Source of the DNA: Bifidobacterium eulemuris
Lineage (GTDB): Bacteria > Actinomycetota > Actinomycetes > Actinomycetales > Bifidobacteriaceae
NCBI RefSeq assembly: GCF_014898155.1
Contig: NZ_CP062938.1
Span: forward strand, 1,302,001 to 1,366,000
Direction: 5' to 3'
DNA: 64,000 nucleotides
A program made the translations under genes and the position numbers. This document shows, piece by piece, positions 13,600 through 55,255 of the stretch; position 1 is the first letter of the stretch; each line of letters opens with the position of its first letter. The notes beneath the pieces are model-generated. The model saw nothing but the letters and a program-made list of their open reading frames with translations, was not told where the DNA came from and did no database searches.

Positions 13600-13644
13600 G
13601 GCCAACCACTGTAGCGCATCCCCTGCCGTTCAACAGAAAGGCGT

Positions 13645-13692: not shown

Positions 13693-13709
13693 TGGACGGG
13701 GAAATGCAA

Positions 13710-13747
13710 AAGCGGGGTCTCGCTCGGTATGGAGTGAGACCCCGCTT
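13710..13747 (-). terminator. Terminator of the ATP synthase operon
   Basis: A 12-bp stem AAGCGGGGTCTC/GAGACCCCGCTT lies just after atpC on the minus strand, followed by a T-rich stretch (TTTTGCATTT). Confidence 0.85.
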
Positions 13748-13765
13748 GGGAGATGAGAAGGCGCG

Positions 13766-14076
13766 CTACTGCTGCTCGGTGGTGGTGTACACCACATCGT
13801 GTCCGCGCTCGACGGCCACGGTGAGTTTGTTCGAGTCGAAGGAGATGAATCCGTCGTTCACGTCGAACATATGCAGGTCGTCATCGGGCTCGACCACGGT
13901 GACCCGTCCCTGCTTGATCAGCGTCAGTATCGGCTCGTGGTTCGGCAGGATGCCCATGCCGCCTTCGGAGGCGGGAATGGTCACGCTCACCGCCTCGCCG
14001 CACCACACGGGATGGTCGGCGGCGACGATGTTCACCCGCATCGTGGTCTTGCCTGCGCTCTGATCCGAACCCGTCA

Positions 14077-14077
<1 letters not shown>
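13766..14077 (-). CDS. atpC: ATP synthase epsilon subunit
   Basis: This 103-aa protein is the epsilon subunit of the F1 central stalk, coupling rotation and inhibiting ATP hydrolysis. The beta-sandwich pattern is present (VNIVAADHPVWCGEAVSVTIPASEGGMGILPNHEPILTLIKQG shortened here to its key parts VWCGEA, GGMGILPNHEP). It is short, ending soon after the sandwich, so the C-terminal helical hairpin seen in E. coli is missing. ATG 14077 overlaps the atpD stop by one base (TGATG). Confidence 0.95.
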
Positions 14078-16487
<2,410 letters not shown>

Positions 16488-22485: not shown

Positions 22486-22562
22486 CGCGGGGTGGAGCAG
22501 CTCGGTAGCTCGCTGGGCTCATAACCCAGAGGTCCATGGTTCAAATCCGTGCCCCGCTACCA
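22486..22562 (+). tRNA. Initiator tRNA-Met (CAT)
   Basis: The 77-nt tRNA includes encoded CCA. The anticodon stem has the three consecutive G-C pairs (CTGGG CTCATAA CCCAG) that mark initiator tRNA, and the first acceptor pair is a C-U mismatch, also an initiator trait. Confidence 0.96.
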
Positions 22563-22568
22563 ACGAAA

Positions 22569-22600
22569 GCTAGGAATCACAACGATTCCTAGCTTTTTTC
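22569..22600 (+). terminator. Terminator of initiator tRNA
   Basis: GCTAGGAATC pairs with GATTCCTAGC around a short loop and is followed by six T. Confidence 0.93.
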
Positions 22601-22670
22601 GTTTTCTCCGATTGTGCCGGGCAGCGCATTCCGGACAAAATCTGGACAACGCGACTTTCGCCGCCTGCCG

Positions 22671-23885
22671 TCACGCCCTCTCCGGACACGGTGGACGGAT
22701 ACGCGTATGACGGGCGGAGAGCGCGCGGAGCAGCCGGTGCTCCTCGAGACTGACGGCGACCATCGCGCCGCAGAGCGCCAGCCAGGATACGCCGCCGAGC
22801 GCCATGAAGACGATGCCGCCGAGACGCGGCACCTCGCCCGACGCCGAAACGCTCTCGCCGCTCGATGTTTCGTCGGCGTCGGACGGCGGCGCGCGCACGC
22901 CGGAAACCACCAGGCGTTTCGTATTGCCCAATCCCACGCAGGTGAGCAGACTGACGCGGTCTTCGCCGGATTCCAATCCGAACAGATCGGTGCGGTTCGG
23001 CTCGACCACCGCGATGCCGTCGATGCGGTAGCGCATGGTCGTGCCCGCCACATGCAGGGAGAATTCCTGCCCAAAGGTCAGCGTGTCCAGACGGGAGAAC
23101 ATCGTCGCGTCGGCCAAACCGGTGTGCGCGCTGAGCACCACATGACTGCCCACGCACGCGCCATCCGCGTCCGTCACGACATCCACGTCACCCACGCCGC
23201 CCACGTCATTCGCGCCCGCCATGCCTTCCGCATCCGCCGCGCCGCCCACACCCATCGCGCCATCCACGCCCGCCGCGTTTTCCGCGCCGTCCACGCCCTC
23301 CATGCCATCCGCGACGCATGCGGATTCGACCGGCAGACTGGAGCCGTACAGGTGGCCGGCGCCACGCAGCAGGGTGGCCGCGCCCGTGCCGTGATAGATG
23401 GGCAGCCGCACGCCGATCGCCTCGATGGCGATCGACCCGATATACCCGGTGCCGTCCATATCAAGCGCGTTTCGGTAGGTGCGGTCCGAGACGCTGCGCG
23501 CGCTATCGTCGCCACCCATGGGATCGACCGCTTCGGCGCGCATCACCGTGCCGAAGGTCTCCACCGATCGGTTGTACGCTTGCGCCAGTATGATCTGCTC
23601 GCGCACCAAGGCGTCGCCGCGCATATCGATATCCGCGTCCGTCGTCTGCGCCACCGACTGCAGACGCGCGTCCTCTTCGGCCCGCCACATCAGCGGGACG
23701 GCGACCGCCAACAGTCCTATCAGCACAGCCGTCACACCCAGAAGCCGCGCCGCCCACGCGCGCGACATACGCGCGCGCAGACGTCTACGGAACACCAAGT
23801 CGGCCGCATGGCCACCGTCAGTCGCGTCGCGGCCAGCGACTTCGCCTGCGAAGAGACCGTTCCATGCGGACCGCCCGTCCATCAC
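22671..23885 (-). CDS. Class C sortase with low-complexity insertion
   Basis: The 404-aa pilus-polymerising transpeptidase has an N-terminal membrane helix (LLGVTAVLIGLLAVAVPLMW), a lid-like motif DPMGG, the catalytic His in SAHTGL, the catalytic Cys in LLTCVGLGN and the Arg in KRLVVSG, then a C-terminal membrane helix. The Cys and His motifs differ from the usual TCTPYG and TGHRGL. Between YGSSLPV and SHVVLSAH an extra stretch of about 60 residues rich in Gly, Ala, Val, Asp and Met is encoded by degenerate short tandem repeats. The start overlaps the upstream pilin stop by 4 nt. It is expected to link the pilins encoded upstream. Confidence 0.88.
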   Translation of the reverse strand: MMDGRSAWNGLFAGEVAGRDATDGGHAADLVFRRRLRARMSRAWAARLLGVTAVLIGLLAVAVPLMWRAEEDARLQSVAQTTDADIDMRGDALVREQIILAQAYNRSVETFGTVMRAEAVDPMGGDDSARSVSDRTYRNALDMDGTGYIGSIAIEAIGVRLPIYHGTGAATLLRGAGHLYGSSLPVESACVADGMEGVDGAENAAGVDGAMGVGGAADAEGMAGANDVGGVGDVDVVTDADGACVGSHVVLSAHTGLADATMFSRLDTLTFGQEFSLHVAGTTMRYRIDGIAVVEPNRTDLFGLESGEDRVSLLTCVGLGNTKRLVVSGVRAPPSDADETSSGESVSASGEVPRLGGIVFMALGGVSWLALCGAMVAVSLEEHRLLRALSARHTRIRPPCPERA

Positions 23886-25549
23886 CGGCCGCCGATCCTA
23901 CGTGACGCGCGCAGCGCCAGAGCCCCGCCGCCCGCGATCAGCGAAACCGCGACAACCGACATAATGGTGCGCATGGTGCTGCCCGTCATCGGCAGTTGGG
24001 TCATCGAGGTGAGGTTCACGATATTGACCTGCCGCGCGTTCACGGTGTCGATGGAGGCGAGACCGTCACCGTCCTGCTTGGTCATGCTCAGCGTGGTGCC
24101 TTTCGCGTCGGTGGCCACCGACACACGGAACGTCGGCTTGAACACGGACAGGTATCCCTGCGGCGTCGAGACTTCGACGATCTCGTATTCCCCGTCCATG
24201 CCGTTCAATACGGCCTTGCCGGCGGGAATGTCGCCGACCAGTCCGGCACCCTGCTGGTTGTCCGCCAGTGTGTACGTGCCCGTACCGGTGTTCGAGAACC
24301 TGAGCGCGTCCCCGGATCGCAGGCCGCCCTCCACCTTATATATGTGGAAGCGGGCGCCCAATGCGGCGTCGATGGCGGCACCCTGCCCGTCGATTTTGTT
24401 CAGACTGAACGATCCGGTGTATGCCGTGACGGTATTGCCCGGCACCTGGCGCATCACGCCCTTGTTTCGCTGGTCGGCGGTGTGGTCGAGTCTGACGGTG
24501 TTCGGATTGCCCGCTCCCGCGATCACGCCCTGCGTGTTGATGCTCGCGCGGTAGTCGATCCGGATGTTCACCCCCGGCGCGAACAGCGTGCGCAACGCTT
24601 CGGTGGCGAGGATGTCGTCGCCCGCGCCGCCCATCGTCCAGGTGACGGTACGCTCCGAAACCGTTTCCGTGAACTGTTCCGACTGCAACGCCTTGCCGTT
24701 CACTTCGATGCCGATCAACTCGCCATAGGTCAGCCCTTCGCCCAAGGTGTCCACCACATGCAGTCGGTAGCCGTCGTAGCCGGTCCAGTTCGGCACCTGC
24801 TGGGTGATACGGTAGGTGATGGATTCGCCGATGGCGGCGTGCGTCGCGTCGACGGTTTTGGAGGCCCCTCCATCGGATTCGACGATTGCCTTCACCGGAG
24901 GCGCGACCGAGGAGAGCTTGATCTGCGCCACACCCAACGCCATTGTCGCGAAGCTTTTCCCTCCGGCCTTGGTGCTCACGATCATCGGCAGCGACGCCGG
25001 CGTGCCCGCGGCGGTGGAGTCGAGGATGAGATACACCCCGGGCGTGAGCCCCGAGAATGTGGCCGTGACGTCGTTCACCGTCGCATTGATCGTCGCCGAC
25101 GACGAGACCGTGGCGTCCCGCGCGAGCAGACCGGCCAATTCACGCAGCTGGCCGGACCATTGCGGAGAAGCGTTCTCACGCAGATTCGTCGACACCCATT
25201 TCATGGGATTCTTCGCATCATAGGAGGGTTTCTGCACGCCGTCCTTGGCGGCGTCGGTATCGATCTGATCCAACGCGGATGCGATGGCCTGCATGAGCTT
25301 GCCGTTGGTGCTCATATCCACGCCGGTAAGCACGCTGCCGTCGGTTTGGGCGGCAATGTATTCGGCCAGATTCGCGGCGGTGAGCCGATGCCCGTCAAGG
25401 GAGTCGGCGGAGCTGATGGCGATGCTCTCCTTGACGGAGAGATTCACGGCGGAGTCGGCGGCGAGCGCGCCGGGAGCGACGCCCGCGACGGCGAGCAGCG
25501 CGATGGCCGCCGCCGCGGCAAGGGAGGCGATGGTGGAGGTGCGGGTCAT
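23882..25549 (-). CDS. Backbone pilin, internal start within the fusion
   Basis: ATG 25549 is preceded by GGAAAGGA at 7 nt, followed by a signal peptide (TRTSTIASLAAAAAIALLAV) and a 555-aa SpaA-type pilin. Features are an N-terminal isopeptide-type domain, DHTADQRNKGVM, a second domain with the E-box-like YEIVEVSTPQGY, and the sorting signal LPMTG followed by a hydrophobic helix and RR. Size and layout match a major pilin. Its stop overlaps the sortase start by 4 nt. It may be made on its own despite the lack of an upstream stop codon. Confidence 0.85.
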   Translation of the reverse strand: MTRTSTIASLAAAAAIALLAVAGVAPGALAADSAVNLSVKESIAISSADSLDGHRLTAANLAEYIAAQTDGSVLTGVDMSTNGKLMQAIASALDQIDTDAAKDGVQKPSYDAKNPMKWVSTNLRENASPQWSGQLRELAGLLARDATVSSSATINATVNDVTATFSGLTPGVYLILDSTAAGTPASLPMIVSTKAGGKSFATMALGVAQIKLSSVAPPVKAIVESDGGASKTVDATHAAIGESITYRITQQVPNWTGYDGYRLHVVDTLGEGLTYGELIGIEVNGKALQSEQFTETVSERTVTWTMGGAGDDILATEALRTLFAPGVNIRIDYRASINTQGVIAGAGNPNTVRLDHTADQRNKGVMRQVPGNTVTAYTGSFSLNKIDGQGAAIDAALGARFHIYKVEGGLRSGDALRFSNTGTGTYTLADNQQGAGLVGDIPAGKAVLNGMDGEYEIVEVSTPQGYLSVFKPTFRVSVATDAKGTTLSMTKQDGDGLASIDTVNARQVNIVNLTSMTQLPMTGSTMRTIMSVVAVSLIAGGGALALRASRRIGGR

Positions 25550-28500
25550 GATGGTGTCCTTTCCGATGATGGTGGTTGGGGTGCGCCTCGCGCCGACGAC
25601 GGCAAGACCGCCGATCAGCGCGAGGAACAGAAGAGGCACGGCCGCGGCGTGGCCGCCCGCGAAGGGCAGCAGGCCGATGGTCGGGCTGGTGACGACCACG
25701 CCGGCATCGACGTGGCCGTGGGAGGGAGCGACGGAGCTGAGCGTCAGCACACCGGCGCTGCCGTAGTCGATGGCACGGTCGCTGGCGTCGGAATCATTGA
25801 CGCCATTGCCTTGCCCGGGGAGGGTGAAGCCATGTCGCGCGTCGCCCAAGGCGAACCAGATACGGTAAGCGCCCATGGCGAGCCTGTCGAAAACGTATCG
25901 TCCGTTCTCGTCGGTGACGGTTTCGTCGATTTTGGTTTCGCCGCCGGAATCGTCCACCGACCACAGGGCCACGGTCACCGACCCGTCGATCAGGCGTTCG
26001 CCGGCGTCGCGCAATCCGTTCGCGTTGCCGTCCAGCCAGGCGAGGCCGCCGATCGACCCCAGCACGGGCGCGTCGGAGTCGGCGGGGATCATCGCGCCCA
26101 CTTGGTCGCAGGAGTCCTCGTTGCCCGCGGCGAAGGAATGTTCGAGTTCGGCCGACGCGTAGTCGCCACCGCTGCGGCAGGTAGCGTTGCCGACGATGTC
26201 GTGGGTGGCGGTGTGCAGACGCGCGGCATCGGGGGCCGCGGGTTTGCCGACGCCGGCCGCACGCGCGTGGGGAACGCCCGCATACGGCGTGTTCGGGGAG
26301 TCGAACCACGCCTGGTTGACGATGGGCCGGCGTTGGTCGGATCGCATCACCGTGCCGCTGAAGTGGAACACCACCCGCGCGCCGGGCGCGATGGCGGCCG
26401 GGATGCGGTAGGAGCGTTCGACAAGGTCTCCCGTCCGGCTCACGCTGACTGGCGTGACCGGCACGGCGGTGCCATCCGAAAGATCGCCGGCTTCGCGCAT
26501 GTCGATCAGCGTGGGCACGGCCACGGTGGCGACGCTCGGCCCGAGACCGAGGGCCCCGCGTTTGCCGGAACCGGTGCTTCGGATACGGCCGTCCGCGTCC
26601 AACGCGAAGGTGGCCGCGCCATTCGCCATCGCGATATGCGTGTGATCGTCGCGCACCAGTCGGGGTGTGACGCTTGCGGTGGCGGTGCCGTCGCCGAAGA
26701 CGCCGGAGGTGTTCGGTCCCCACATCCAGACATGCCCTTGCGTGTCGATCGCGGCCTTCACTATGCCTCCGGCGATGGAGGTCCATGTCCGCGTCGGCAT
26801 AAGCGCGGTGGGTGTGGCCTCGGATTGGGCGTCGATGCCGAGGGTCCATTGCGTTCGTTGGGATGCGTTGCGCCCCCATACCCAGAGTTTGCCGGAGGCG
26901 TCCAGGGCGAGCACGGTGCAGTTGGTGAGGTTGCCGGAGGTGACGACGTCGCGCCATGTGCGGTTGGTCATCACCTTGGCGGGAGAGGTGCGTCCGCCGG
27001 TGGTGCCGTCGCCCAATGCGAGACAGCTGCCTTGCGATGAGAACCGGCAGTTGTCTCCCCAGCTCCACAGATGCCCTTGGGTGTCGATGGCGAACGCCGC
27101 GCCGGTGCCGGCCTGCACCACGGAGAAGGTTTGTTCCAAGTCCAGACGGGTGGGTTCGACCCATGCGGACGCCAGGGATGAGGTGGCGGGCCGTCCCACG
27201 CCGAGGCCGTCGCTGAGCACGCCCCAACTCCACAGTCTGCCTTGCGGGTCGATGGCGAGGGTCAGTTCGCTGGACACGCTGATGCTCGCCCATGTGCGCT
27301 CCGGCATCACCGCATGCAGGGTGGAGAAGCCGGTTTTGTCGTTCCAGGCGTAGTTGGCGGCGCTGCCGGTGTCGCCCAACACATTGCGCTGGTTCTGCCC
27401 CGCCGCCCACAGGTGGCCTTGCGAGTCGAGGGCGAGCATGCCGTTGGTGGCCGTTTCGACCGCCGTGAAGGTGCGGTCGGTGGGCACCCTGGTGGGCACG
27501 TGGCGGTCCGTGGTGTCGCCGAGCCCCAATTGTCCGTAGTCGTTGCGCCCCCAGCTCCACAATCGTCCTTGAACGTCGATGGCGTAGGCGAAGGTGCCGC
27601 CGGAATGCACGGAGGCGAACGTGACCTCGCTGTCGGGCGTGTGGGCGAGGGTGCCGGCCGTGGCGGCGAGCGCGGTGACGTCGCCGCTGGTGCGGTCCGT
27701 CAGCATGCCCTCGGCGTCGATGGTGAGGTCTCCCGCATTGTCGACGACCACATCCCAGGCGACCGTGCATGCCTTGGCCGTATCGTCGGGGCATTCGAGT
27801 CTGGTCTGGGTTTTGTCGACGGTGATTTTCGGGTCCGGCGCGTCGTATCCGAAGTTCACATCCGCCAGCGTCTCGCCGACGTCCAGCGCGATGCGGTCGC
27901 TGGAGTCCGTGGCCCGCGTGCCGACGCGCGCGTTCCATGTGGCGGTGTTGCGCACCGTATGCGTCCGCCCGTAGTAATCGTCGCGCTGGCGGGGCACGCC
28001 GTGTTCGCCGTCGCGGGTGACGCGCACGAGGTAGTCGCCGTGCCGCAGCCGGTCGAAACGATAGCTGCCGTCGGCCGCGGTGCGGGTGGTGGCGAGCGCG
28101 GTGCCGACGGCCGCTCCTTGCTCGTCCGTCCGCCATAGGCCGACGCTGACGGAGGCGATGCCGGATTCCGCCGCGCCTATCCGCCCGTCGCCGTTCTCGT
28201 CCCACCACAGACGGCCTGCGATCGAGGCGTCGGATACGAGGATGCGGGCGGGCCAGGGCATGGTGGCGACCGTGGCGCCGGCGCTGAAACGGCTGCGGCC
28301 GATCCACAGATGGTAGCGGTCGTCTGTCTGGTTGCCGTCGGCGGATAGCGTGATCTCTCCTTGCGCGCAGGCCATGCGCGTGGAGGTGCGGGTGAACGGC
28401 GAGACGATGCGGATGGCGGTGACGCGCGCCCGTTCGGTTGGGGAGAGCGTGTCCCAGGCGCGCCACTGGTAGTCGTCGGGATCGTCGGAGTATCGTTCGT

Positions 28501-31003
28501 CGGTCGCATAGGTCGCCACGGTGCCTTCGCTGGTGTTCTCCCCGTCCAGCTCCACGGGTTCGGCGAGGGCGAGACGGCCGTGGAAGGCCGATGAGCCGAG
28601 CGTGTATTCCTCCCACGTGCCATCGAGGCCGGTGTTGCCCGCGCCGGTCATGGCGGAGTCCTGATTGGAGGGCAGACGCAGCACCGTGGTGACCGTCCCC
28701 TCGCGTGCAATGCCGCGGTCGACGATGTCGAAACGCCAGCGCAACGCGTCCCCCGCCTCCACACGTTCGTTGAGGGCGGTCACGCGCGCGGCATGCATAT
28801 CCGCCTGTGTGACGGCCACCTGCGTGGTGGCGGTGTTCGAGATGGCGACGGTGCCGGCGGCGAGCGCCCGCATGCCGCAGGCCGAGGCGAGCGTGCCCTG
28901 CGCGAGGTTGGAGACGGTGGCGCTCCATCGGATGACGGGCAGGGAGGCGGCACCGTCCGCGTCATATGTGGGTGCGTGTCCGGCGAGGGTGAAGGTCAGC
29001 GTGCGGCCGTCGCGGCGCATCGTCCATTGCGGCGTCAGGTTCTCCACGGCGCTCAGACCTTCGGGCAGGCCTGCCGTCACGGTGGCGTCGAGCGTGGTCG
29101 ACGAGTCGGCGATATTGGCGATATGCGGCTCGATGGTGTAGGTGACGACGTCCGACGGGCGCAGGTCGAGCGGGTCGGCGGCCAGTCCGTCACTGGATGA
29201 AGCCCGCGCGTCCGCCGTCAGCGTCGCTTCCGGGTCGCCCGCCGCCACCACCCAATAGCTGGATGCGAGGGGCTTGGTTGTCAGGCGGCCGGCCATGCGC
29301 ATCCGCGTCTCGCCTTCCACCCGCACGTTGCCGCGGGATGGATCGGCGACGGCGCGGCTGACGAAACGCATCTCCAGCGTGCCGCCATCCGACGCGACGC
29401 CGTATCCGATGTCGTCGCGCAACCGCAGGCGTATGGCCCGGGCCGTGACGCCCGGGGTTCCCGTATGCCATACGCCGTCGCCGCCGGACGCGTCAGCCAT
29501 CGCATCCGCGCTCCATTCCACCCTCCACAGACGACTGTCCAACGGCCGCCCGTCGAGCAGCACCCGCAGGTCGCCGTCGTAGCGTTCCTGCGCGGCGTCC
29601 CACTGGTAGGCGAGCCGCACGTCGCAGTCCCGACCGCAATCGGGCATATTGCCGGGCCAGAGCATCAGACGGTGCAGCACCTGCGTATCGCGCGCCACGC
29701 CATGCTCGTCGATGGCGCGCGTGGCGCCGGATGCGGCGAATTCGCGCCCTTCGCGATCGAATCGCGTCGCTCCGGAGGGTATCGCCGGTGCCAGCGGATG
29801 GTATCGGCCGAATATATGGTCGCCTTCGCTTTGCCAACTGGCGGGACGTTCGATGATCGCGCGGCTGTGATCGTTGTTGGCGTACGGATAGCCGGCGATC
29901 GCTCCGGTGCGCGCGTCGCGTGTGGAGGCGTCGCGCGCCATGCCGTCCCCCGGCTGGCCGCCGTCGCCGTTGTTGGCCAGGGCCGTCCCGCCTTGCGCTT
30001 GGAAGCTGCCCTCGTCGGGCGCGACGTGAATATCCAGACTGATGACGCCGCCTTCGTCCATGCCTCGGATCGTCGGATCGATGGCGGGAATCGACCATTC
30101 GAGACGCTTCTCGCCCTGCGCGTGTTCGATGCGCAGCCTACCGCCCGATGCCTCGACCGGCTCGCCGCCCACCGTCCATGCGGTGGAGGCGGGGAACGCG
30201 GAGACGTCGACGGTGGCGTTCCATTCGCCTGCGCCGCTGGCGCCATGGGTGGTCGTATGCCCCGGGTAGGTCAGATGGCGGATGCGCAGGTCGAACCAGC
30301 CGCTCACCCGGCCGGAGTCCGCCCATGCGCTGACGCGTTCCGCTTTGTCGCCCTCGTCGCCGAGGCCGCCGTTGTCGACCACCAGATCGGCGCGGGGCGC
30401 GCTGACGATGGTCAACGCCTCGGCCCGCACGGTGTAGACGCGCCCGCCCGGCCGGGAGAAGGTGACCGACGGACGCACGCCGCCGACCGCCACGCCCGCG
30501 GTGTCCCCTGCGGTCAAAGTGACGACGCGTTCCAAGGACTCGACGGCTCCGGCCGGCACATGGTACAGGCATGCCGATCCGCCGTCGGCCGTGGCGGTGA
30601 CCACACGGCCCGCATAACAGCCGATGTCTTGGGCGGACAACCGCTCCGGCAGATCCCAGGCCACGCGGACGTCCCGCCGGCCCGCCGCGGTGAACCGCAG
30701 ACGCAGCAGATAGGTCACGGTGTCCCCGGAGGCGACCACGCCGTCGTCGGCGGACTCATCGCCGGGGGAGAATCCGTTGGCCGAGTTGACGAAGGTCTGC
30801 GCGGCCGTGCCGTGGCCGGTGCCGTCCGCCAGTTTCTCGACGGAGACGCTCGCATACGGTTCCGCGGCGGCCGGTTCCTGAGCCATGACCGGCGTCACGC
30901 ACGCCATGGCGGCCAGCACGCCCAGCGTGGCCAGCGCAGCCAGCAGGGCCAGCACGATCGCGACCAGCGCTCTGACGCCATCGCCGATTATGTTCCGTAT
31001 CAT
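23882..31003 (-). CDS. Giant LPFAG surface protein fused in frame to LPMTG pilin
   Basis: From ATG 31003 (GAAGGA upstream) the frame stays open for 2373 codons. A signal peptide is followed by an exported N-terminal half with prealbumin/DUF11-like segments, an SdrD-B-like domain near residue 926 (GRLWWDENGDGRIG), seven RCC1-type repeats at about 1126-1500 (AIDTQGHLWSWGDN style), a second SdrD-B-like domain near 1650 (GLAWLDGNANGLRD), and the sorting signal LPFAG at 1779 with a hydrophobic helix and RR tail. No stop follows: the frame continues into a new signal peptide and a pilin ending LPMTG. Family knowledge says a sorting signal should be terminal, so this is probably two genes merged by stop loss or two proteins made by internal initiation. 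Likely role: pilus tip or adhesin of locus 1. Confidence 0.8.
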   Translation of the reverse strand: MIRNIIGDGVRALVAIVLALLAALATLGVLAAMACVTPVMAQEPAAAEPYASVSVEKLADGTGHGTAAQTFVNSANGFSPGDESADDGVVASGDTVTYLLRLRFTAAGRRDVRVAWDLPERLSAQDIGCYAGRVVTATADGGSACLYHVPAGAVESLERVVTLTAGDTAGVAVGGVRPSVTFSRPGGRVYTVRAEALTIVSAPRADLVVDNGGLGDEGDKAERVSAWADSGRVSGWFDLRIRHLTYPGHTTTHGASGAGEWNATVDVSAFPASTAWTVGGEPVEASGGRLRIEHAQGEKRLEWSIPAIDPTIRGMDEGGVISLDIHVAPDEGSFQAQGGTALANNGDGGQPGDGMARDASTRDARTGAIAGYPYANNDHSRAIIERPASWQSEGDHIFGRYHPLAPAIPSGATRFDREGREFAASGATRAIDEHGVARDTQVLHRLMLWPGNMPDCGRDCDVRLAYQWDAAQERYDGDLRVLLDGRPLDSRLWRVEWSADAMADASGGDGVWHTGTPGVTARAIRLRLRDDIGYGVASDGGTLEMRFVSRAVADPSRGNVRVEGETRMRMAGRLTTKPLASSYWVVAAGDPEATLTADARASSSDGLAADPLDLRPSDVVTYTIEPHIANIADSSTTLDATVTAGLPEGLSAVENLTPQWTMRRDGRTLTFTLAGHAPTYDADGAASLPVIRWSATVSNLAQGTLASACGMRALAAGTVAISNTATTQVAVTQADMHAARVTALNERVEAGDALRWRFDIVDRGIAREGTVTTVLRLPSNQDSAMTGAGNTGLDGTWEEYTLGSSAFHGRLALAEPVELDGENTSEGTVATYATDERYSDDPDDYQWRAWDTLSPTERARVTAIRIVSPFTRTSTRMACAQGEITLSADGNQTDDRYHLWIGRSRFSAGATVATMPWPARILVSDASIAGRLWWDENGDGRIGAAESGIASVSVGLWRTDEQGAAVGTALATTRTAADGSYRFDRLRHGDYLVRVTRDGEHGVPRQRDDYYGRTHTVRNTATWNARVGTRATDSSDRIALDVGETLADVNFGYDAPDPKITVDKTQTRLECPDDTAKACTVAWDVVVDNAGDLTIDAEGMLTDRTSGDVTALAATAGTLAHTPDSEVTFASVHSGGTFAYAIDVQGRLWSWGRNDYGQLGLGDTTDRHVPTRVPTDRTFTAVETATNGMLALDSQGHLWAAGQNQRNVLGDTGSAANYAWNDKTGFSTLHAVMPERTWASISVSSELTLAIDPQGRLWSWGVLSDGLGVGRPATSSLASAWVEPTRLDLEQTFSVVQAGTGAAFAIDTQGHLWSWGDNCRFSSQGSCLALGDGTTGGRTSPAKVMTNRTWRDVVTSGNLTNCTVLALDASGKLWVWGRNASQRTQWTLGIDAQSEATPTALMPTRTWTSIAGGIVKAAIDTQGHVWMWGPNTSGVFGDGTATASVTPRLVRDDHTHIAMANGAATFALDADGRIRSTGSGKRGALGLGPSVATVAVPTLIDMREAGDLSDGTAVPVTPVSVSRTGDLVERSYRIPAAIAPGARVVFHFSGTVMRSDQRRPIVNQAWFDSPNTPYAGVPHARAAGVGKPAAPDAARLHTATHDIVGNATCRSGGDYASAELEHSFAAGNEDSCDQVGAMIPADSDAPVLGSIGGLAWLDGNANGLRDAGERLIDGSVTVALWSVDDSGGETKIDETVTDENGRYVFDRLAMGAYRIWFALGDARHGFTLPGQGNGVNDSDASDRAIDYGSAGVLTLSSVAPSHGHVDAGVVVTSPTIGLLPFAGGHAAAVPLLFLALIGGLAVVGARRTPTTIIGKDTIMTRTSTIASLAAAAAIALLAVAGVAPGALAADSAVNLSVKESIAISSADSLDGHRLTAANLAEYIAAQTDGSVLTGVDMSTNGKLMQAIASALDQIDTDAAKDGVQKPSYDAKNPMKWVSTNLRENASPQWSGQLRELAGLLARDATVSSSATINATVNDVTATFSGLTPGVYLILDSTAAGTPASLPMIVSTKAGGKSFATMALGVAQIKLSSVAPPVKAIVESDGGASKTVDATHAAIGESITYRITQQVPNWTGYDGYRLHVVDTLGEGLTYGELIGIEVNGKALQSEQFTETVSERTVTWTMGGAGDDILATEALRTLFAPGVNIRIDYRASINTQGVIAGAGNPNTVRLDHTADQRNKGVMRQVPGNTVTAYTGSFSLNKIDGQGAAIDAALGARFHIYKVEGGLRSGDALRFSNTGTGTYTLADNQQGAGLVGDIPAGKAVLNGMDGEYEIVEVSTPQGYLSVFKPTFRVSVATDAKGTTLSMTKQDGDGLASIDTVNARQVNIVNLTSMTQLPMTGSTMRTIMSVVAVSLIAGGGALALRASRRIGGR

Positions 31004-31145
31004 CGTCGTAGTCCTTCGTTTCTTGCCGTACCTGTTTTCGCCATGCCGTTGCGACGCTTCGTCTCCGACCACACCCCGCGCCCCTTGTGGCGAAGCGCCG
31101 ATCGCGGGCGCGAGCGGACGGGCACGCCATCCCATACGAGCCGCG

Positions 31146-33122
31146 CTACAGGCTGCGTCGTTTGATGATGGCGAACATCGCCATCCCCACCGCGGCCGCG
31201 GCGGCCGTCACACAGACGGCGACGGCGAGCGTCTCGCCCATGCCGGTGATGGGCAGTCGTTCCTCAGGCTCTTCGGGCGTCTCGGGCGTTTCCGGCTCCT
31301 GTGGTTCTTCGGGCGTTTCAGGTTCCTCAGGCGTCTCCGGCTCCTCAGGCTCCTGCGGCTCCTCCGGCACCCATGGCTCGCCGACCCGAACCGTCTCCCA
31401 GGCGTCGTCATAGCGGCTGGAGGCGGGCATCACCCGGTCGTCGCCGTCGAAACTCCAGACGAACACGTACCAGCCGTGGCTTTCCGCGGTGATATGCACC
31501 GGCTCGCCGTGGGCGTCCGGCGCGCCCGCGCCGACTTTGAACGTGCCGTTGACGGCCCGGTACTCCCATGTGCCGATCAGCCGGTGATGCTCGTCCTCGG
31601 CGGGAGGCTCCTTCGAGGATGGGCGGTAGTCGTCGTCCTTCGACGGATCGTCCATATCGCCCGACCACCACACGCTCACCCGCGCGTATTGGCGGTCCGC
31701 GCCCAGTCCGAACTCCTCGTTGCCGGCGAACATGCCATGGTCGTCGGGAAAGCCGCTGACGGTGATGATGTCGCTCAACGCCGCGCCCACGTCCGCCGAA
31801 TGTTCGGTCACGGTGGAGTCGACGGCGACTTTGACGCGGTTGGCGTTCGTCTCCGAAGCGTCCCCGAAGGCGCTGGTCCAATCCTTGAGCACGTACTCCT
31901 GGGCCTCCAGACTTTGGTCCCCACGCTCGAACGCCCACACCCACGTGCCGAAACCGCCCGACCCATCGGTCAGATACGGCTCTTTCCCTCCCGGTTCGGT
32001 GACGGCCCGCGCCTCGACGATCTGGCCGGAATCGGTGAACACGGCGGTGCCGTACGCCACGGGCTTCAGACCGTTCTCAGCCAAACGGGAGAGGAACGCC
32101 GCCGTGCCCTCGCCCGCCTTGGGCTCGAAGCGCACGCCGAGATACGCGCCCGACAGGCCCGCGAAATAATAGCCCCGCGCCCGCAGCTCCAGTCCGGGAA
32201 CCCATACGCTGTTCTCCCCGCTGACCGCGGAGGTCACCCGGTCGACCACCTCCTCGCCGACGTCCACCACTTTGCGCGATGTGACCGTGGACAACGCGGG
32301 CGTGAAATCCTTGCGCACCGTGAACGTCACCGCCTCGCCGCGCGTCTCGCCGGCCGAACCGTAGGTGATGAAGTCCTGCTTGCTGTCCATGTGGGTGAGC
32401 GTGTGGCGCTCATAGGAGGTGCGCACCGACACGGGACCTTCTCCCGTGGCCTGCCACGCATAGGTGACGTCGCGTGCGGCGGAGGTCCCTTTCATGGTTC
32501 TGCCGCCGCCTAGGAAGCGGGCCGGCCCCTCCAACGTCACGGTGTACGGCACTCCCGCGATGGCCTGTCCGGCCGCGTTGGCGACGCGCACCTTCACCTT
32601 GCCGGAGCGCAACGCCACGGCGTCGGTACGCTCGACCCGCATCGAGGCCGGCGTATGGGCGGCGGATTCGGCCCACAACGCTTCGGCTCTGGCCACCGCC
32701 CCGGGAAACTGCGCCTTCGCGGCCGCCAGATGCCGCCGCCAATCATCCGGCATCGTGCCGAAGTTGTTCTGCGTGATGATGCTGAGCGCCGCATGCGTCT
32801 GCGTGTCGGCGTCGCGGTATCGGTCGAGCAGCCAGGCGAGTCTGCGCGCCGTGGCGCTGTCCTCCACCGGCGTCGTCGGCCCCACCACATAGTCGGCGAG
32901 GATGCCGGCCTGTATGCAGTAGAATTTGTTGCCCGCGTCGTCCACGGCCGCGACGCCCACCGCGCGCTGCCCCTCGGCGACATCGATGAGATAGTAGGTG
33001 TCTTCCGGCGCGCGATTGAGCATATCGGCCGCCCACGCCGCCGGTGCCGCGCCGACGATCATCGCCAGTCCCACAAGCGCCGATAGCACGCTCGCCGCCC
33101 TTCGTTGCCATACGGTTGTCAT
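31146..33122 (-). CDS. LPITG-anchored surface protein with Pro-Glu stalk
   Basis: The 658-aa protein starts at ATG 33122 (AAGGA upstream) with a signal peptide ending AAWAA. The N-terminal domain contains YCIQ (Cys near residue 66 from the start) and, further on, SIITQNNFG, a Cys/Gln spacing that resembles surface thioester domains; this is tentative. Several beta-sandwich-like domains follow (VTFTVRKDFTPALSTVTS). A Pro-Glu repeat of about 45 residues forms a stalk before LPITG, a membrane helix and KRR. It is the first gene of pilus locus 1 and could be a minor pilin or adhesin attached by the downstream sortase. Confidence 0.82.
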   Translation of the reverse strand: MTTVWQRRAASVLSALVGLAMIVGAAPAAWAADMLNRAPEDTYYLIDVAEGQRAVGVAAVDDAGNKFYCIQAGILADYVVGPTTPVEDSATARRLAWLLDRYRDADTQTHAALSIITQNNFGTMPDDWRRHLAAAKAQFPGAVARAEALWAESAAHTPASMRVERTDAVALRSGKVKVRVANAAGQAIAGVPYTVTLEGPARFLGGGRTMKGTSAARDVTYAWQATGEGPVSVRTSYERHTLTHMDSKQDFITYGSAGETRGEAVTFTVRKDFTPALSTVTSRKVVDVGEEVVDRVTSAVSGENSVWVPGLELRARGYYFAGLSGAYLGVRFEPKAGEGTAAFLSRLAENGLKPVAYGTAVFTDSGQIVEARAVTEPGGKEPYLTDGSGGFGTWVWAFERGDQSLEAQEYVLKDWTSAFGDASETNANRVKVAVDSTVTEHSADVGAALSDIITVSGFPDDHGMFAGNEEFGLGADRQYARVSVWWSGDMDDPSKDDDYRPSSKEPPAEDEHHRLIGTWEYRAVNGTFKVGAGAPDAHGEPVHITAESHGWYVFVWSFDGDDRVMPASSRYDDAWETVRVGEPWVPEEPQEPEEPETPEEPETPEEPQEPETPETPEEPEERLPITGMGETLAVAVCVTAAAAAVGMAMFAIIKRRSL

Positions 33123-33262
33123 CGTGCCGTCCTTCCTCAATAAGTTCGAATAAGCCAACGGTTCGCGCCTCATCACGCGATTGGCATGAGCATCGCATAA
33201 TCGCGCCGCGGACCTCATGGTTTTCGGCCTATGTGGTTCCAGCCCCATACCCGTCGGCGAGT

Positions 33263-33333
33263 TGTGGATAACTGCGCGGCGAAGTTATCCACATTCCGGG
33301 GTTTTCGGCAGGTCGCGCGCCAAGTTATCCACC
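33263..33333. promoter_or_regulatory. Cluster of DnaA boxes
   Basis: TGTGGATAA (33263-33271) is the reverse of TTATCCACA, which occurs at 33285-33293; TTATCCACC at 33325-33333 has one mismatch. They lie between the pilus locus 1 promoter region and the glgE -10. No dnaA, dnaN or AT-rich unwinding region is nearby. Confidence 0.6.
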
Positions 33334-33391
33334 GTCCCGCCTAGTGGGCACATCGGCGTTGCGCCACGAAGCCCTCGTACAATAGGGCCTT

Positions 33392-48278: not shown

Positions 48279-50000
48279 TCAGGCGCGCAGAGCCTTCTTG
48301 GTGCCGCGCATCTTGACGTACACCGTGGCGGCAGCGCCCACCAGCAGCAGTCCGATCACGGAGAACAAGGCGACTCCGGCACCGCCGGTCAACGGCAGCT
48401 CGGTCAGGTTCTTGACGTTGGCTACGGTAATGTTCACAACCGGGGACTGGCCCGGATATTCGGTGATCGTGCTGCTGGTCAGCGAGGCAAGCCCTCCCAT
48501 ATTGTCGGTCAGCTCATACACGACCTGAGTGACTTCCCGAGCCTCGTTCACGCCGTCAAAGGTCGGCGTGATGATGACCTCGAGATCCTTGTCCAACGGA
48601 TTGAGGATATGGTCCGTAGGGGCCTTGGTCTCCTCGACCGTGTAGGTGGTACCGCTCTCGTCAGCGTCCAGACCTTCGAACGTCACCAAACCGCCATTCT
48701 TGGAGGTCGCGGTGGCGACGGTGGTACCGTCGGAGTCCTTGAGGGCGAACTCGGCACCGTCAAGCGTACCGCCAGTGGTCTTGTCGGTCTTCTTCAACAC
48801 CAGCGGGAAGTTGAATACCTTCTTGCCCGGGCCGGGGATCGTGGTGAGCGTGCTGTTGTCGTACGGATCATTCGGAATCTGGATATACGGGCTGTTCTTC
48901 ACACCATCCAACGGCAGCTGGGCGTGCACGGTAGCCAGATAGGTGACGACCACTTCGGCACCCTGCAGCGTGAAGACGTTGAATTTGCCGTCGTTGGCTG
49001 TGTCTTTGGTCTGGTCATAGCCGTTCTTCCGCACATACGAGGACAAATCGATGTCAAACTTCACAGCAGCGTTGTCGAGGTCCGTCGTCGGATCACCATT
49101 CGCATCGTAGTAGGTCAGCGTGTAGTCAGTGCCAGCAAGCTCTGCGTTATTCACCTTGACCACAACGGAGCCACTCTTATAGGAGATCATGCTCGGAGCA
49201 TACTGGGAGTCGAACTGATCGCCTACCTTGAACTGGAACGTGCGTGCCAAGCCGCCCGCGTAAGTAGGAATCTTGGTCGTAAGCGTGTACGACGCATCCT
49301 TGTTCACCGCGACGGTTTCGTCGGCGATTGTCTTGTTGATCGTGTCCACGGAGTTCTTCATGTTGATTGTGCCGGTGGACAGGTCGTTGGCGGTGCAGGA
49401 CTGGGCCGCGAGCCACTCGGTACCTACAAGCATTGCGAGACTCTTCGAAGAGCTGGTGCTGCCATTTGTAACCGCTGCGTTGTCCACAATCAGATACAAG
49501 CCTGGGGAGGTCATTGTGAGTTTGGCGGTCTTATCACTAATAGTGATGTTATCGGAAAGAACGTCGCTCAGGGTTAGACTTTTTTTCAGCGAATCGGCGA
49601 AGGCACGGGAGGATCCCAAACCCCACGTATCCTTTGTGCCGGTCTGGTCAAGCAGATCGCCTTCCTGAACGGCCCACGACAGTAGATCACCGGAAGTCGG
49701 CAGAGTGCCCTCTTCGACGCCTGCGGCGATCAAGGCGCTCTTAATCGATGCAGCGGCGACACCAGTAGTGGTTTTCACACCGGCGACACCATTGTCGGCG
49801 GTGTAATCGCCGATTTTCGCATACTTGAAGGTATGCGATGTCAGCTGAGCCGCATTTTCCGCATTAATCGTGATCGTGGATGCGGTCGGCAACGTCACCG
49901 TGCAGGGATCCGCCGCATTGGCGGTGGTTGCGCCGATCGTTAGACCGGCGAGCATCGTTGCTGCGGCGGCGATGCCGGCGAATAGTTTTCTCATCTTCAT
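48279..50000 (-). CDS. LPLTG backbone pilin of locus 2
   Basis: The 573-aa major pilin has a signal peptide (LFAGIAAAATMLAGLTIGA), an N-terminal D1-like domain, two Cys (DPCTV and AQSCTAND), a beta-domain with the E-box-like TYTVEETKAP, and the sorting signal LPLTG followed by a hydrophobic helix and basic tail. It matches SpaH/FimA-type pilins. AGAGGG lies before the start; Met3 is an alternative. It is polymerised by the sortase two genes downstream. Confidence 0.93.
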   Translation of the reverse strand: MKMRKLFAGIAAAATMLAGLTIGATTANAADPCTVTLPTASTITINAENAAQLTSHTFKYAKIGDYTADNGVAGVKTTTGVAAASIKSALIAAGVEEGTLPTSGDLLSWAVQEGDLLDQTGTKDTWGLGSSRAFADSLKKSLTLSDVLSDNITISDKTAKLTMTSPGLYLIVDNAAVTNGSTSSSKSLAMLVGTEWLAAQSCTANDLSTGTINMKNSVDTINKTIADETVAVNKDASYTLTTKIPTYAGGLARTFQFKVGDQFDSQYAPSMISYKSGSVVVKVNNAELAGTDYTLTYYDANGDPTTDLDNAAVKFDIDLSSYVRKNGYDQTKDTANDGKFNVFTLQGAEVVVTYLATVHAQLPLDGVKNSPYIQIPNDPYDNSTLTTIPGPGKKVFNFPLVLKKTDKTTGGTLDGAEFALKDSDGTTVATATSKNGGLVTFEGLDADESGTTYTVEETKAPTDHILNPLDKDLEVIITPTFDGVNEAREVTQVVYELTDNMGGLASLTSSTITEYPGQSPVVNITVANVKNLTELPLTGGAGVALFSVIGLLLVGAAATVYVKMRGTKKALRA

Positions 50001-50172
50001 GAGAACCCTCTCTTCCTATATTTTTCTTCTTATAAACAGCGGTGGGAGCCCACACAACACCATCGGCAAACTCCAGAACGCGGGAAAACAACACATCCGC
50101 GCACCTTTACCGCCGCAAATCTTCAAACTCTGTATTCAGTTATTCGTCTTCGCTAGCCAGAGGCCGAACGCC

Positions 50173-53100
50173 TCACACGGTGAGATTCGACCAACTGTTG
50201 CGGCGGCACCACGCGCGATAGGCCAACCACACCAGCACCGAAGCGCCGACCAAGGCAAGACCCCACAGCAGCCACTGGCGTCCAGTAGTCCCGCCCGTAA
50301 ACGGCAAAGACAAGGACGCCTGCTCAAAAGAGTTCGTGAATGCAGCAACGTGCACGGAGATTTCCTGATCCCCGTCCGTCCGGGTCTCGGGATCAACTGG
50401 TTCGTTCACAGCTACGCCCGCGTCATTCACGGTACGAACTAACGATGGAGTAGCACTTACGTGCCACCCATTCTTCTGGTAACGTTCAGCGCGCACTGTA
50501 TAGGTATATTCCGCCTGCGAATAGGTCATACCCTTGATTGAGTCTTCATCGGCCGGATGAATCTCACGTATCGTATATGTGAAGTCCATCTGGTTATACC
50601 ACGCATTGTTAATCTTGAACGCACCGTATGAAAACTTGAATTCACCGAATGACGCAATGTTCGAGTTTCCTGTTTCCGGTTTGGTCACAGTGACCCGACA
50701 AGTGCGTTTGCTGCGATCACAGGACACATTGTCCCCTTCAGGCAACAACAGAACTCTGTCGGAGAAATCATAGGTTTTATTATCACTAGATGTCGCCGTC
50801 ACACCCGTAGCCGTAATCTCAAAGACAAACTCACCTTCCTCCCAGCCAGATTCGCCGGATACAATCTTCTTTACGTCCAATGAAGTGGCCGTATTTCGGT
50901 CGGGTTTCGGTTCATTTTTCACCATCACAGTTGTGGTCCCAGAGAACAAGTTATCCAGTACCGTATCGTTCAGGTCTTGCTTGTTTGCGCCACTCACACC
51001 GAGATCGTCATTTTGATAAAGCTGCCGAATCATGAGATTCGACCAACCTATATCATTCTCCAATGTGACGGACTTGAAATCGAGATCACCTGTCACCGAT
51101 TCGCCAATCGGTCTATACTGAAGCACCGCGTGCCCAGGTTCAGCATCATAAGTCAAATTAAGACGAAGATCCTGACTAGTTTCCGACTTCGTCCAGTCCG
51201 TACTATCAGACGGCGTCTCCGAGCTCGGCAATGTCTGCAGCGTGGCCGTGATGTCAGTCAGCGTGCGATCAATTTGATTAGGAGCCGCATATTCCACCAA
51301 GGTCCGAATCAGTGAACCCACACCTTTTCTCACACGAAACTCATCATTTTCGTCGCGAGCATCTGCATACACACCTTGATTGGTCACAATGACTTTGACG
51401 AGTCTCTTAGTCCACTTATATGAGTCGTCTAGATCAGTGGACTCTTGCAAATAGTATGTACCATTCTCCAGTATGCCGCTGGAGGTGGAGGGGAACACCG
51501 CGGCACTATGCAAAAGCACCTTGGAAGAATCAGCGCCATTCAAGTCACTGACTCTCAAATCCGAGGTTGTAGTCGCGGTGTCATAGGGCTGAGCGCCAGC
51601 CTTAATTGTAGGATTATCCGAATAGGGGTTTTCGACGTCATCCTCTTTGTACAGATTGAATGTGGCAGTTAGGCTCTCACCGAGATTGGTGAGAGGATCC
51701 CAGTTCTCGTCGGTCTTCTGTACGAACAAGCGGTTTTTGACGTTTGGCACATTCAAGTTCAGAGAGAACTGTCTGACCCACTTTTCGCCATCCTTTTTGC
51801 TCTCGATGTACAAACGCGAGGTGTTCGTTGCATCGGCATCCTCAAGCTGTTTTGCGCTAGTGAAGTAGTAGGCGACGGTGTACTCAGTATTGCCCCGCTC
51901 ACTATCGGCAAGCAGGCTGTAGTATTTTTTGATATCGCCGGGCAATTCAGTAATATTGGCCTGATACGCGCCCATCGAAGACACAGTGAACTTATACGCG
52001 GCACCATTTTTCGCTGCGTTGGCCACGTCCCCTATGCCTTTAATTGGAGTGGTCTGATAACCATCTAAGGCAGTACCTGATATCACACTCCAGTTATCGG
52101 ACTGAGTCAGTCCATCTACGCCGTCTCCAGTGTACTTGAGGACCACCGCAAACAAAGTGCCTTGGGCGATGGCGGAAGAATCGATTTTACCACCGGCTTC
52201 TGTGGAGCTATTGCCTATCTTGTATATGACATCCGGCGCAGTCACCAAAACACCCGCATTCGCATAGGCACCGGTTTTCCAGATGTTGTAGTCCGCTGTT
52301 TCGGAAGTGATATAACCGCCGAATTGACTACCTTCCTCGGGAGGATGATAGTTCAGCTGCATCTCTCCCACGGCACGATAGCCGTCCGGAATTTTTATTT
52401 CCTTCAACACGTAGTTCGTATAGCTGGTATCTTGATATATCCCATCAAATGAGAGTGGTCTATTCGGTTTATTTGGATCCATCAACAACAGCTCGCCATT
52501 GGAATCCGTTTCGCCAGAGGCGACTTCATGACGTTCATTATTGGCATCGACACCATATAGCTCAAATCCCACGCCAGAGATGGCGTTGCCGGACTGATCG
52601 ACCTTGGTGATTTTGCTCTGTGGAACCGTGACCAGATTGAATTTCAATGCTAGATTGGAGTCTTGCGCACCACGTTCCAGATAAAAGACCTTAAGCGTAT
52701 GGTATGTGCCATCGGCGAACGTGTAATGGCTACTGCTACCTCCCACTTCTTGCCAATCATCCGTGGAAGAACCGACTCCAAACGCCTCATCAAGGAATTC
52801 GACCGTCTTCCGCCCCTCCTTGAATGAACCGTCTTTGTTCAAGGCATTGCCGTAAGTGATCGTTCCGGTTTTGAAATCGATCGTGACGCCAACAGGATCA
52901 TGGATACCACCTAGGTCGGCTACCAGCACGCCGTCGATGTAAATCCATACGTCATCGTCGCCGGCGAACTCGTAGGTCATGTTATTGCCGCCCACTGTGC
53001 CACCGGTCGGCTGAATGAACCGCGTGGACATCGTCAAACCGAAATGATGGTTCCATGTAGAGCTATTGGACAAGGCGAGATTCGTTTTTTGGACCAATTC

Positions 53101-53779
53101 CCCATTTTCATCGATATCGAATACTTGACTGGCGGTATTGAAGGGGAAGAACTGGGTACCGCTCATCACGCCGGTGCCGCCACTGGTGATGGCACCTTCC
53201 GTGTACAAATCGAACTTGTTGGTCTCTTCGTTGTAGGACGCGAAGTTCTTCTTGCTGTCGTAGTAGTAATAGCCTTGACTATCAACCTGCAACAAGTTAC
53301 CCACATTCCCGTAGGCCTTCATTCCATCCTCATCCGTCGTGGTCCTCGATGTATCAAACAGATACTGCAACGACTCCGTTGAAGAGCTCACCTCGCCAGA
53401 CAACCAATTCTTCTCGGCCTTGTCGCGGAACATCACGTAATCATCGATGCCCGTTGTTTCACTTGTCTTGTTGTTGGCGATACCGGTCAGATTAGGATAG
53501 CCCTCATCATTGAGTGTGCTCGAAACGATACCTTTGCGAGGGCCGCCTCTCTCATATTTCCAGCTATCAGCGTTCTGCCCCTGCTTGTCTGACTCGCCAT
53601 TGATATACGGAGGGTCATCGAGATTCTCACGCGTACTGTTTCCCGTCCAGAAATTCGCATAGCCATAGTCCGGCACGCCCGTGCACTCAACCGGAACCTT
53701 TATGACGTTGCCACTCTCGTCTTTTTTGTTTTCCGTGCAGTAAAAATGATCTTTAGGGTTGGAGTTGGTCGAAAACTTC
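50173..53779 (-). pseudogene. Pilus tip adhesin, 3' part (interrupted)
   Basis: The frame has about 1200 codons with no start codon of its own. It encodes fibro-slime/PA14-like domains (MTYEFAGDDDVWIYIDGVLV), several Cna-B-like domains (FELYGVDANNERHEV, YVLKEIKIPDGYRA), and the sorting signal LPFTG near the end followed by helix and RR. It begins after the CTTC target duplication (KFSTNSNPKD), exactly where the 5' part stops (INKDHALK). Together they would form the tip pilin of locus 2. Confidence 0.9.
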
Positions 53780-55255
53780 CGAGGTTCGTCATTAATAAGT
53801 GAGCGCGTAATCGTTGTTCGTTTGTCGTAATGGGTGAGCGCGAAACGGTGCCTGCGATCTATTTGTCGTTTTGTCCGGCGTCGGCGCGCATGCGTTCGAT
53901 CGCCTTTCCCAAGTATCCCATGTCCAGGCCGGCGCGGCGGGCCATCGCCTCGGTGCGGTCCCGGCTGACGCGTTCGAGTTCGTCCTGGATGACGGCGATC
54001 TCGCGGTTGAGGCGGGCGGGGTTGGTGGCGGCGATGATCCCCTCGATGCGGCGGCGGGCGTCGTCGACGACGTATCCGCCGCCCCCGGCGGCGCGGTCGG
54101 CGGCGTCGTGCTCCAGCACGCGCGCCCACGGGGTGCGGGGCTCGTCGTACACGGTCTTCCTGCGCCCGTCGCGCCCCTGGTCGACGCGCACGGGCTTGCG
54201 GGTGGGCGTGAACAGGTTCAGCAGCACGTAGGTCTTCGCCCACAGCCGGTTGAGCAGCTCGCGCTGCTGCGCGGTGTCGTAGCGCCAGTGGAACGCGTAT
54301 TTCCTGACGACGTGGTTGTTGCGCGACTCGACGGTGGCCTGGTCGTTCTTCCTGTACGGGCGGCTGCGGGTCTGTTCGATGTCCTGTTCGAGCAGCCAGT
54401 CGACGAGCTCGTCGTTGATGAACTCGACGCCGTTGTCGGAGTCGAAGCAGGTGACGGGAAACGGGAAGAGCGGCAGGGCGGTGGCGACCGCTGCCTTGAT
54501 GTTGGATTTGGCATTGTTGCGGGCGGTGACGTTCACGGTCCAGTTCGTCGCGTAGTCCACCATCGTCAGGGTGCGGGCGAACTCGCCCTTCATGCTGGGC
54601 CCGCAGTGGGCCACGGTGTCTGCCTCGGCCAGGCCGGGAACGCGGATTGTCTCGTCGGTGCATTTGCGGATCCTGATCGAGTTGCGCATGTGCTCCGCGG
54701 CCGGCCGGGTCAGCGACGCGCCCTTCGGCATGGCGGCCTGTTTGAGCGGTCTGAGCCGCCGGTCGATGGTCGACGGACTCATCGCCAGCACCTGGTCCAG
54801 CGCGTCGCCGTCGATGCCGTCGAGCTCGCCGTTCGCCAGGAGCGCGGGAATCCACTGGTCGAACATGGCCTTCATGTACGGGCCGCACGGCATGCCCATG
54901 AGCAGCCACAGGCGCTCCAGCAGCCGCTGCGCGCCCGCGTCGTACTTCGGCCGCCTGCCCCGCGCCGCGCCTTTCACGGGTTTCTCCCTCTCCGCCTGCG
55001 TGAGCAGCCGCCGGGCGGTGGACCTGCCCATCCCGACGGCCTCGAGGCGGTCGAGGATCTCGCCCTTCTGTTTCTTGTCGCCCTTGGCGTACTCCGCCTT
55101 GAACCTGTTCGTCAGCCGTTTTCTCGTGGCCATGTCCAGTCTGCCTTCCATAAGGCAAGCATCCCCGCGAACGACGCGGGCCGCGCGGGATTTCGCGCTC
55201 ATTATTTATGACGAACGGAATCCAATTTCGCGCTCAAACATTACGACGAACGTCG
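53780..55255 (-). mobile_element. 1476-bp insertion sequence
   Basis: The ends are CGAGGTTCGTC... and, inverted, CGACGTTCGTC.... Each end contains two copies of a motif ending TGAGCGCG, about 36 bp apart. CTTC flanks both sides (53776-53779 and 55256-55259) as a 4-bp target duplication. One transposase gene fills the element. I do not assign a family. Confidence 0.88.
53859..55133 (-). CDS. DDE transposase with integrase core
   Basis: The 424-aa protein starts with a helix-turn-helix-type basic region (RLTNRFKAEYAKGDKKQKGE, GMGRSTARRLL) and has an rve-type catalytic core with likely Asp in MVDYATNW, Asp in CFDSDNGVEF and Glu in KNDQATVESRNN. It should cut and join the IS ends. ATG 55133 is favoured because GGAAGG lies upstream; Met at 55151 is possible. 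Confidence 0.85.
   Translation of the reverse strand: MATRKRLTNRFKAEYAKGDKKQKGEILDRLEAVGMGRSTARRLLTQAEREKPVKGAARGRRPKYDAGAQRLLERLWLLMGMPCGPYMKAMFDQWIPALLANGELDGIDGDALDQVLAMSPSTIDRRLRPLKQAAMPKGASLTRPAAEHMRNSIRIRKCTDETIRVPGLAEADTVAHCGPSMKGEFARTLTMVDYATNWTVNVTARNNAKSNIKAAVATALPLFPFPVTCFDSDNGVEFINDELVDWLLEQDIEQTRSRPYRKNDQATVESRNNHVVRKYAFHWRYDTAQQRELLNRLWAKTYVLLNLFTPTRKPVRVDQGRDGRRKTVYDEPRTPWARVLEHDAADRAAGGGGYVVDDARRRIEGIIAATNPARLNREIAVIQDELERVSRDRTEAMARRAGLDMGYLGKAIERMRADAGQNDK

Follow-up and report, generated by a model that had tools for sequence, protein, structure and literature searches.

The window (the whole 64,000-nt stretch of Bifidobacterium eulemuris DNA analysed here) carries on its minus strand a pilus locus in which an adhesin, a short linker and a pilin are read as one frame, followed by a sortase (Table 1). 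In the ORF list of the window the frame is stop-free over 23882–31135 (minus strand) and has 2417 codons counted from its first ATG. The start at 31003, giving a protein of 2373 residues that begins MIRN, is the one used in database entry P0001, and it lines up with that of the homologous protein of Bifidobacterium lemurum.

Table 1. Features of the fused adhesin-pilin frame and its surroundings. Positions are those of the window.
Feature	Position	Strand	Remarks
Fused CDS (adhesin, linker, pilin)	23882..31003	minus	2373 codons plus stop; same frame in B. lemurum
First signal peptide, residues 1 to about 41	30881..31003	minus	Hydropathy peak 13-31; cleavage site by eye
RCC1-repeat propeller region of adhesin, residues about 1131-1500	26504..27613	minus	PF25390 183 bits (cut-off 150), PF00415, PF13540
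SdrD_B-like domain, ahead of first sorting signal	25700..26056	minus	PF17210 97.8 bits (cut-off 29.7), best stretch
First sorting signal, LPFAG + hydrophobic stretch + RR, residues 1779-1807	25583..25669	minus	Kept in B. lemurum
11-codon linker TPTTIIGKDTI	25550..25582	minus	Stop-free in both species
Ribosome site GGAAAGGA, 7 nt before internal ATG	25557..25564	minus	Same in B. lemurum
Internal ATG (25547-25549, codon 1819) and second signal peptide, residues 1819-1848	25460..25549	minus	Hydropathy
Complete pilin CDS	23882..25549	minus	555 codons plus stop; TIGR04226, PF16569, PF17802 over cut-off
Candidate pilin-motif lysine, K211 of pilin	24917..24919	minus	Invariant in 10/10 aligned pilins
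E-box YEIVEVSTPQGY	24152..24187	minus	E459 of pilin invariant in 10/10 aligned pilins
Second sorting signal, LPMTG + hydrophobic stretch + RR, residues 2337-2373	23885..23995	minus	PF00746 over cut-off
Sortase	22671..23885	minus	GTG start overlapping pilin stop by 4 nt; PF04203, TIGR01076 over cut-off
Upstream LPITG surface protein, same cluster	31146..33248	minus	No Pfam match; also upstream in B. lemurum
Control pilus cluster within the window	48279..55158	minus	Pilin 48279-50000; adhesin frame ends 50173, own stop, gap 172 nt

A preliminary description of this DNA had claimed a single adhesin-pilin frame with two sorting signals, in which a complete LPFAG signal at residue 1779 is followed by a ribosome site, an ATG at 25549, a new signal peptide and a whole LPMTG pilin. 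The frame is continuous, the LPFAG motif lies at that residue with its arginine pair at 1806–1807, and everything described behind the join is present, in B. lemurum as well as here. A Kyte-Doolittle profile of the whole frame, using a sliding window of 19 residues, has four peaks above 1.6, at residues 13–31, 1787–1805, 1825–1843 and 2346–2364; these are the two predicted signal peptides and the two predicted sorting-signal helices. The second signal peptide is predicted by eye to be cleaved after ALA and before ADS. The calculated masses are 248.4 kDa for the whole chain, 191.3 kDa for the adhesin part and 57.2 kDa for the pilin part; the earlier estimates were 240, 190 and 58 kDa.

The pilin half has the organisation of a backbone pilin, with an N-terminal signal peptide and a C-terminal sorting signal (identified by hydropathy and motif), and both its motif lysine K211 and its E-box residue E459 align with those of nine other pilins. 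Profile scans were run on the whole frame. The pilin half scores 65.7 bits with TIGR04226 (cut-off 30), 50.1 with PF16569 (30.5) and 43.1 with PF17802 (23.1). It scores 73.6 bits with NF033902, the SpaH/EbpB subfamily, which is below the curated cut-off of 95, and the pilin is not filed there. Its sequence matches solved surface or FimA-like proteins, with a best E value of 1.4e-16, and an AlphaFold2 model of the pilin, made from 4 sequences, has a mean pLDDT of 45.2 and is too poor for use.

In the sortase a His and a TC...R motif are retained, and its score with the class C model NF033745 is 157.1 bits, just under the cut-off of 160. Adhesin, pilin and sortase are adjacent on one strand, as in bifidobacterial pilus operons. 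The adhesin and pilin are separate genes in those operons, and here they are not, the join being stop-free in both species. The surface protein encoded upstream contains a stretch FYCIQAG, which we take to recall thioester adhesin domains.

The RCC1-type propeller is best known from eukaryotic proteins. Here such a propeller lies in the middle of a bifidobacterial pilus adhesin, and adhesin relatives in two other genomes (G110 and G105) match this region repeatedly, which suggests that the number of repeats in this region varies among relatives.

The fused frame in a second species

A protein search with the whole frame, in which the 7984 best candidates were scored, listed 76 matches. Apart from the protein itself there was one full-length relative; the other 74 matches are partial, cover at most 16% of the query and, by their Pfam lists, are mostly RCC1 or SdrD_B proteins. 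The full-length relative is P0002 of B. lemurum (genome G084), a single frame of 2370 residues that is 84% identical over 98%. It is worth adding that annotation can conceal such a pilin: the B. lemurum copy is named merely as an RCC1 repeat-containing protein.

The adhesin parts of the two genes have 88% DNA identity. The codon alignment has a single gap, of 3 codons and within the first signal peptide, and the join contains neither a stop nor an indel. The linker has undergone three amino-acid changes and one silent change in its 11 codons, and LPFAG, RR, GGAAAGGA, the ATG and the second signal peptide are common to both species. Since the full length is kept in a second species, the open frame is not due to chance. 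Both fusions come from genomes assembled as one contig each, 2.92 and 2.97 Mb long. An error of sequencing or assembly by which a stop codon was lost, named earlier as a possible source, is ruled out for practical purposes by the same open join in B. lemurum and by the single-contig genomes. In the comparison of homologous loci that had been proposed as a check, B. lemurum has no stop after the RR, and the separate-gene relatives have one.

Comparison with B. lemurum gives a dN/dS of 0.34 for the adhesin and 0.25 for the pilin. The second signal peptide has the lowest value of all the parts, 0.18 (over only 31 codons), which fits its continued use in export by either of the routes discussed below. 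The value for the first sorting signal with the linker is 0.61. To judge from the two sequences, both halves are complete and constrained in both species, and most simply the fusion was already present in their common ancestor.

Separate genes in the same genome and in the genus

The assumption that adhesin and pilin are normally separate genes is borne out within this genome. In five out of five other adhesin-pilin pairs read, the adhesin has its own stop and is followed by a gap, of 140, 159, 167, 172 or 177 nt. Two of these five controls are imperfect, namely L108 and the cluster at 48279–55158 of the window, where a 1476-bp repeat, identical in the two, breaks into the adhesin frame (at 53780–55255 in the window); both interrupted adhesins retain their 3' end, with sorting signal, stop and gap.

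The 1476-bp segment is 100% identical at 53780–55255 of the window, at 2963–4438 of L107 and at 11394–12869 of L108. Each copy is beside or inside a pilus adhesin gene, which it interrupts in the window and in L108. It is probably a mobile element, because one of its frames reads, by eye, like a transposase.

A pilin survey of 112 genomes of the genus, with scoring limited to no more than 3 first-look candidates from each, found 79 frames that match the pilin half. Besides the two fusions, all of them (77 of 77, counted from rows transcribed by hand) span 124–724 codons, and another pilin search adds frames of up to 752 codons. Gaps were then read at 47 pilin loci: a pilin frame was obtained at 36 and none at 2, and the other 9 were repeats and were passed over. 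In 15 of the 36, the upstream frame was marked as having a terminal sorting signal; two of these (L006 and L061) were set aside by eye as implausible. The 13 remaining adhesin-pilin gaps are 63–453 nt long, with the start chosen heuristically and with three rows (L002, L027 and L080) that look misread. Among proteins of 1330–4230 residues, the two fusions are the only ones with this pilin region in 7988 scored candidates; this search needs shared 5-residue words, and distant cases could escape it.

When 394 genomes of the class were searched with NF033902, 6 genomes other than this one had a single match that exceeds the cut-off; the frames concerned have 520–713 codons. One further frame (G369, 858 codons) passes only when neighbouring matches are added, and there are weaker partial matches in longer frames of up to 3695 codons. 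This search is weak evidence of absence, because at most 3 candidates were scored per genome and the fused pilin was itself missing from the three listed for its own genome. Of two scans of a collection of named genomes, which may omit this genome and near ones, one gave no matches and the other gave two partial matches in unrelated draft genomes. The fusion is real and inherited and, on the basis of these searches, apparently rare.

The nearest separate-gene relatives of the adhesin are in genomes G105, G107 and G110, with best segments 41–44% identical. As in the fusion, the homologous adhesin there lies next to a sortase gene and to one whose product carries a pilin-type sorting signal. Unlike in the fusion, the order is pilin-sortase-adhesin in all three (the G105 pilin being judged solely by its MPKTG sorting signal), so that the adhesin comes last. 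It starts at or over the sortase stop, and its own stop comes 42–83 residues from the start of an LPHTG, LPYTG or LPFTG motif. The order adhesin-stop-pilin-sortase is found in genome G018. Next to the G107 cluster there is a 1210-codon frame with MucBP domains (L066, 271–3903).

Stop loss had been suggested as one possible origin of the fusion. Given the order pilin-sortase-adhesin in the relatives and the usual gap where an adhesin precedes a pilin, the loss of a single stop codon is probably not the whole explanation. The order adhesin-pilin could have come about by tandem duplication of a compact pilin-sortase-adhesin operon and subsequent loss of the outer genes.

Expression and processing of the fused frame

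There is no stop at the join, and a ribosome completing the adhesin therefore reads on into the pilin. The in-frame fusion is real, and we hypothesise, with slightly more confidence than doubt, that the joined chain is cut at the cell surface and that extra pilin is made from the internal start. The preliminary description had presented a polyprotein and internal initiation as alternatives. They are not exclusive, and both fit the stop-free join and the intact second start.

A ribosome that finished the adhesin would enter the pilin, and the chain so made would have a mass of about 248 kDa. Export of the adhesin would be directed by the first signal peptide, and the LPFAG helix would act as a stop-transfer segment with the RR inside. 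The positively charged loop would stay inside, and the second signal peptide would restart export, now of the pilin. It is a general rule (the positive-inside rule) that positively charged loops sit in the cytoplasm; the loop 1806–1824 carries R, R, K, R and one D, and by this rule it should be cytoplasmic. The order of the four hydrophobic segments fits that required by the proposed topology. Signal peptidase would then cut after the ALA, freeing the N-terminus of the pilin. Cleavage of the sorting signals would fall to sortase, and between them the two enzymes could separate adhesin and pilin. If signal peptidase and sortase do the cutting, no special protease is needed. Because a pilus requires more shaft subunits than tip subunits, further initiation at the ATG at 25549 would provide the surplus.

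A more specific proposal is that this is a natural pilus polyprotein, made as a membrane-hairpin precursor that is delivered to sortase, with further shaft subunits coming from the nested internal start. We put this forward tentatively, as something short of an even chance. If the proposal is true, the first shaft subunit would always be beside its adhesin at the start of assembly.

The internal start was compared with other starts. In both species GGAAAGGA is predicted to pair with the 16S tail at -10.0 kcal/mol. Among the 189 in-frame internal ATGs of the window's 29 longest non-overlapping ORFs (not all of which need be genes), 3 attain this value, counting 25549. The pairing equals that of one separate pilin of this genome (L108), and those of the other four separate pilins are stronger, -11.0 to -12.9. 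The predicted unpaired fraction at positions -18 to -4 is 0.63 and 0.65 in the two species, compared to 0.31–0.57 at the five separate pilin starts. Around the start codon it is 0.66 and 0.80, compared to 0.45–0.92, and is thus not always higher. No excess conservation was found at the ribosome site: in codons 1807–1830, 17 of 20 same-residue codons are identical, compared to 81% of 1912 overall. The two species are too close for selection on this site to be demonstrated, and an open linker of 33 nt could persist between them by chance. The ribosome site, start and signal peptide of the second gene are intact in both species.

These observations bear on a simpler reading, in which the internal start has become a relic and the fused chain is the sole source of pilin, at one per adhesin, so that fibres would be short or sparse, with one adhesin per shaft subunit. 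The lack of a stop means that every completed adhesin yields a fused chain, and conservation of the ribosome site is no higher than background, both of which agree with this reading. It is made unlikely by the survival in both species of the ribosome site, its spacing, the ATG and the signal peptide, with a strength equal to that of one separate pilin start.

The first sorting signal is not matched by PF00746 (Gram_pos_anchor), even at an E value of 1, and the same is true of the sorting signals in the other five adhesins that were read from this genome. The fourth position of the motif is A in both fused species. It is T in four separate-gene relatives (LPFTG, LPYTG, LPHTG and LPLTG) and in all five other adhesins read in this genome; across 13 adhesins of the genus it is T in 10, S in 3 and A in none, and one pilin has LPAAG. 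Cutting by sortase at LPFAG may therefore be weak, and if the motif were left uncut the adhesin would remain held in the membrane by its hairpin. It could be argued from this that the anchor is unprocessed or half-processed, with LPFAG dead for sortase, the adhesin held by a two-helix hairpin and the pilin either released or still joined. However, S at this position is tolerated in three adhesins and A in one pilin, and the remainder of the signal is kept, and we consider a dead anchor improbable.

A further reading is that the fusion is a neutral accident: the pilin would still be made from its own start, and the fused chain would be a useless by-product, tolerated or degraded. That an open linker of 33 nt can persist without selection, that its residues change freely (in 3 of 11 codons), and that the genus and long-protein searches found the fusion in only two species are all consistent with an accident. 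It would, however, turn every finished adhesin into a by-product, and the adhesin is under purifying selection (see the dN/dS above), which implies that at least part of the adhesin made as fused chain should arrive where it acts. We give neutrality a low probability.

A ribosomal frameshift near the join into the +1 frame, which in both species ends in a TGA overlapping the ATG at 25549, would allow termination and restart, but it is very improbable: ATGA results from any ATG before A and also begins the five separate pilins of the genome, the +1 frame of B. lemurum has an extra stop shortly before, neither locus has a G or C run of at least 7 or an A or T run of at least 8, and no slippery motif was seen by eye.

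Comparison with known pilus systems

The fimA/P, fimB/Q and strA pilus operons of bifidobacteria are described (PMC3231923) as having separate major and minor pilin genes, with a polycistronic fimA/P-fimB/Q message. The present locus resembles them in the clustering of a minor pilin or adhesin, a major pilin and a sortase, and in the pilin-motif lysine and E-box. It differs in that the subunits, which are separate genes there and in the other clusters read, form one frame here.

In B. breve UCC2003, a variable G-tract within the first subunit gene breaks or joins the pilus frame (PMC9187656). The two cases are alike in that continuity of the frame determines which pilus products arise. They are unlike in that the B. 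breve tract lies within one subunit, while the fusion joins two whole subunits without any tract. Switching by a G-tract was considered for the fusion and rejected, there being no G or C run of at least 7 in 22500–33500 of the window or in 4300–15300 of the B. lemurum locus (L063).

In Actinomyces oris, sorting signals set tip or shaft position (PMC11389406). Unlike in the fusion, each signal there ends its own protein, and the available part of that paper describes no fused precursor. Among the literature matches listed, no title or opening of an abstract describes a fused adhesin-pilin gene. What appears to be new here is the presence in one frame of the predicted adhesin and shaft pilin of a bifidobacterial sortase-assembled pilus.

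Assembly of a pilus depends on the order and ratio of its tip and shaft subunits. With the natural fusion it can readily be tested whether sortase pili are able to assemble from a joined precursor, and also whether the ordinary export and sortase machinery handles an internal sorting signal followed by a signal peptide.
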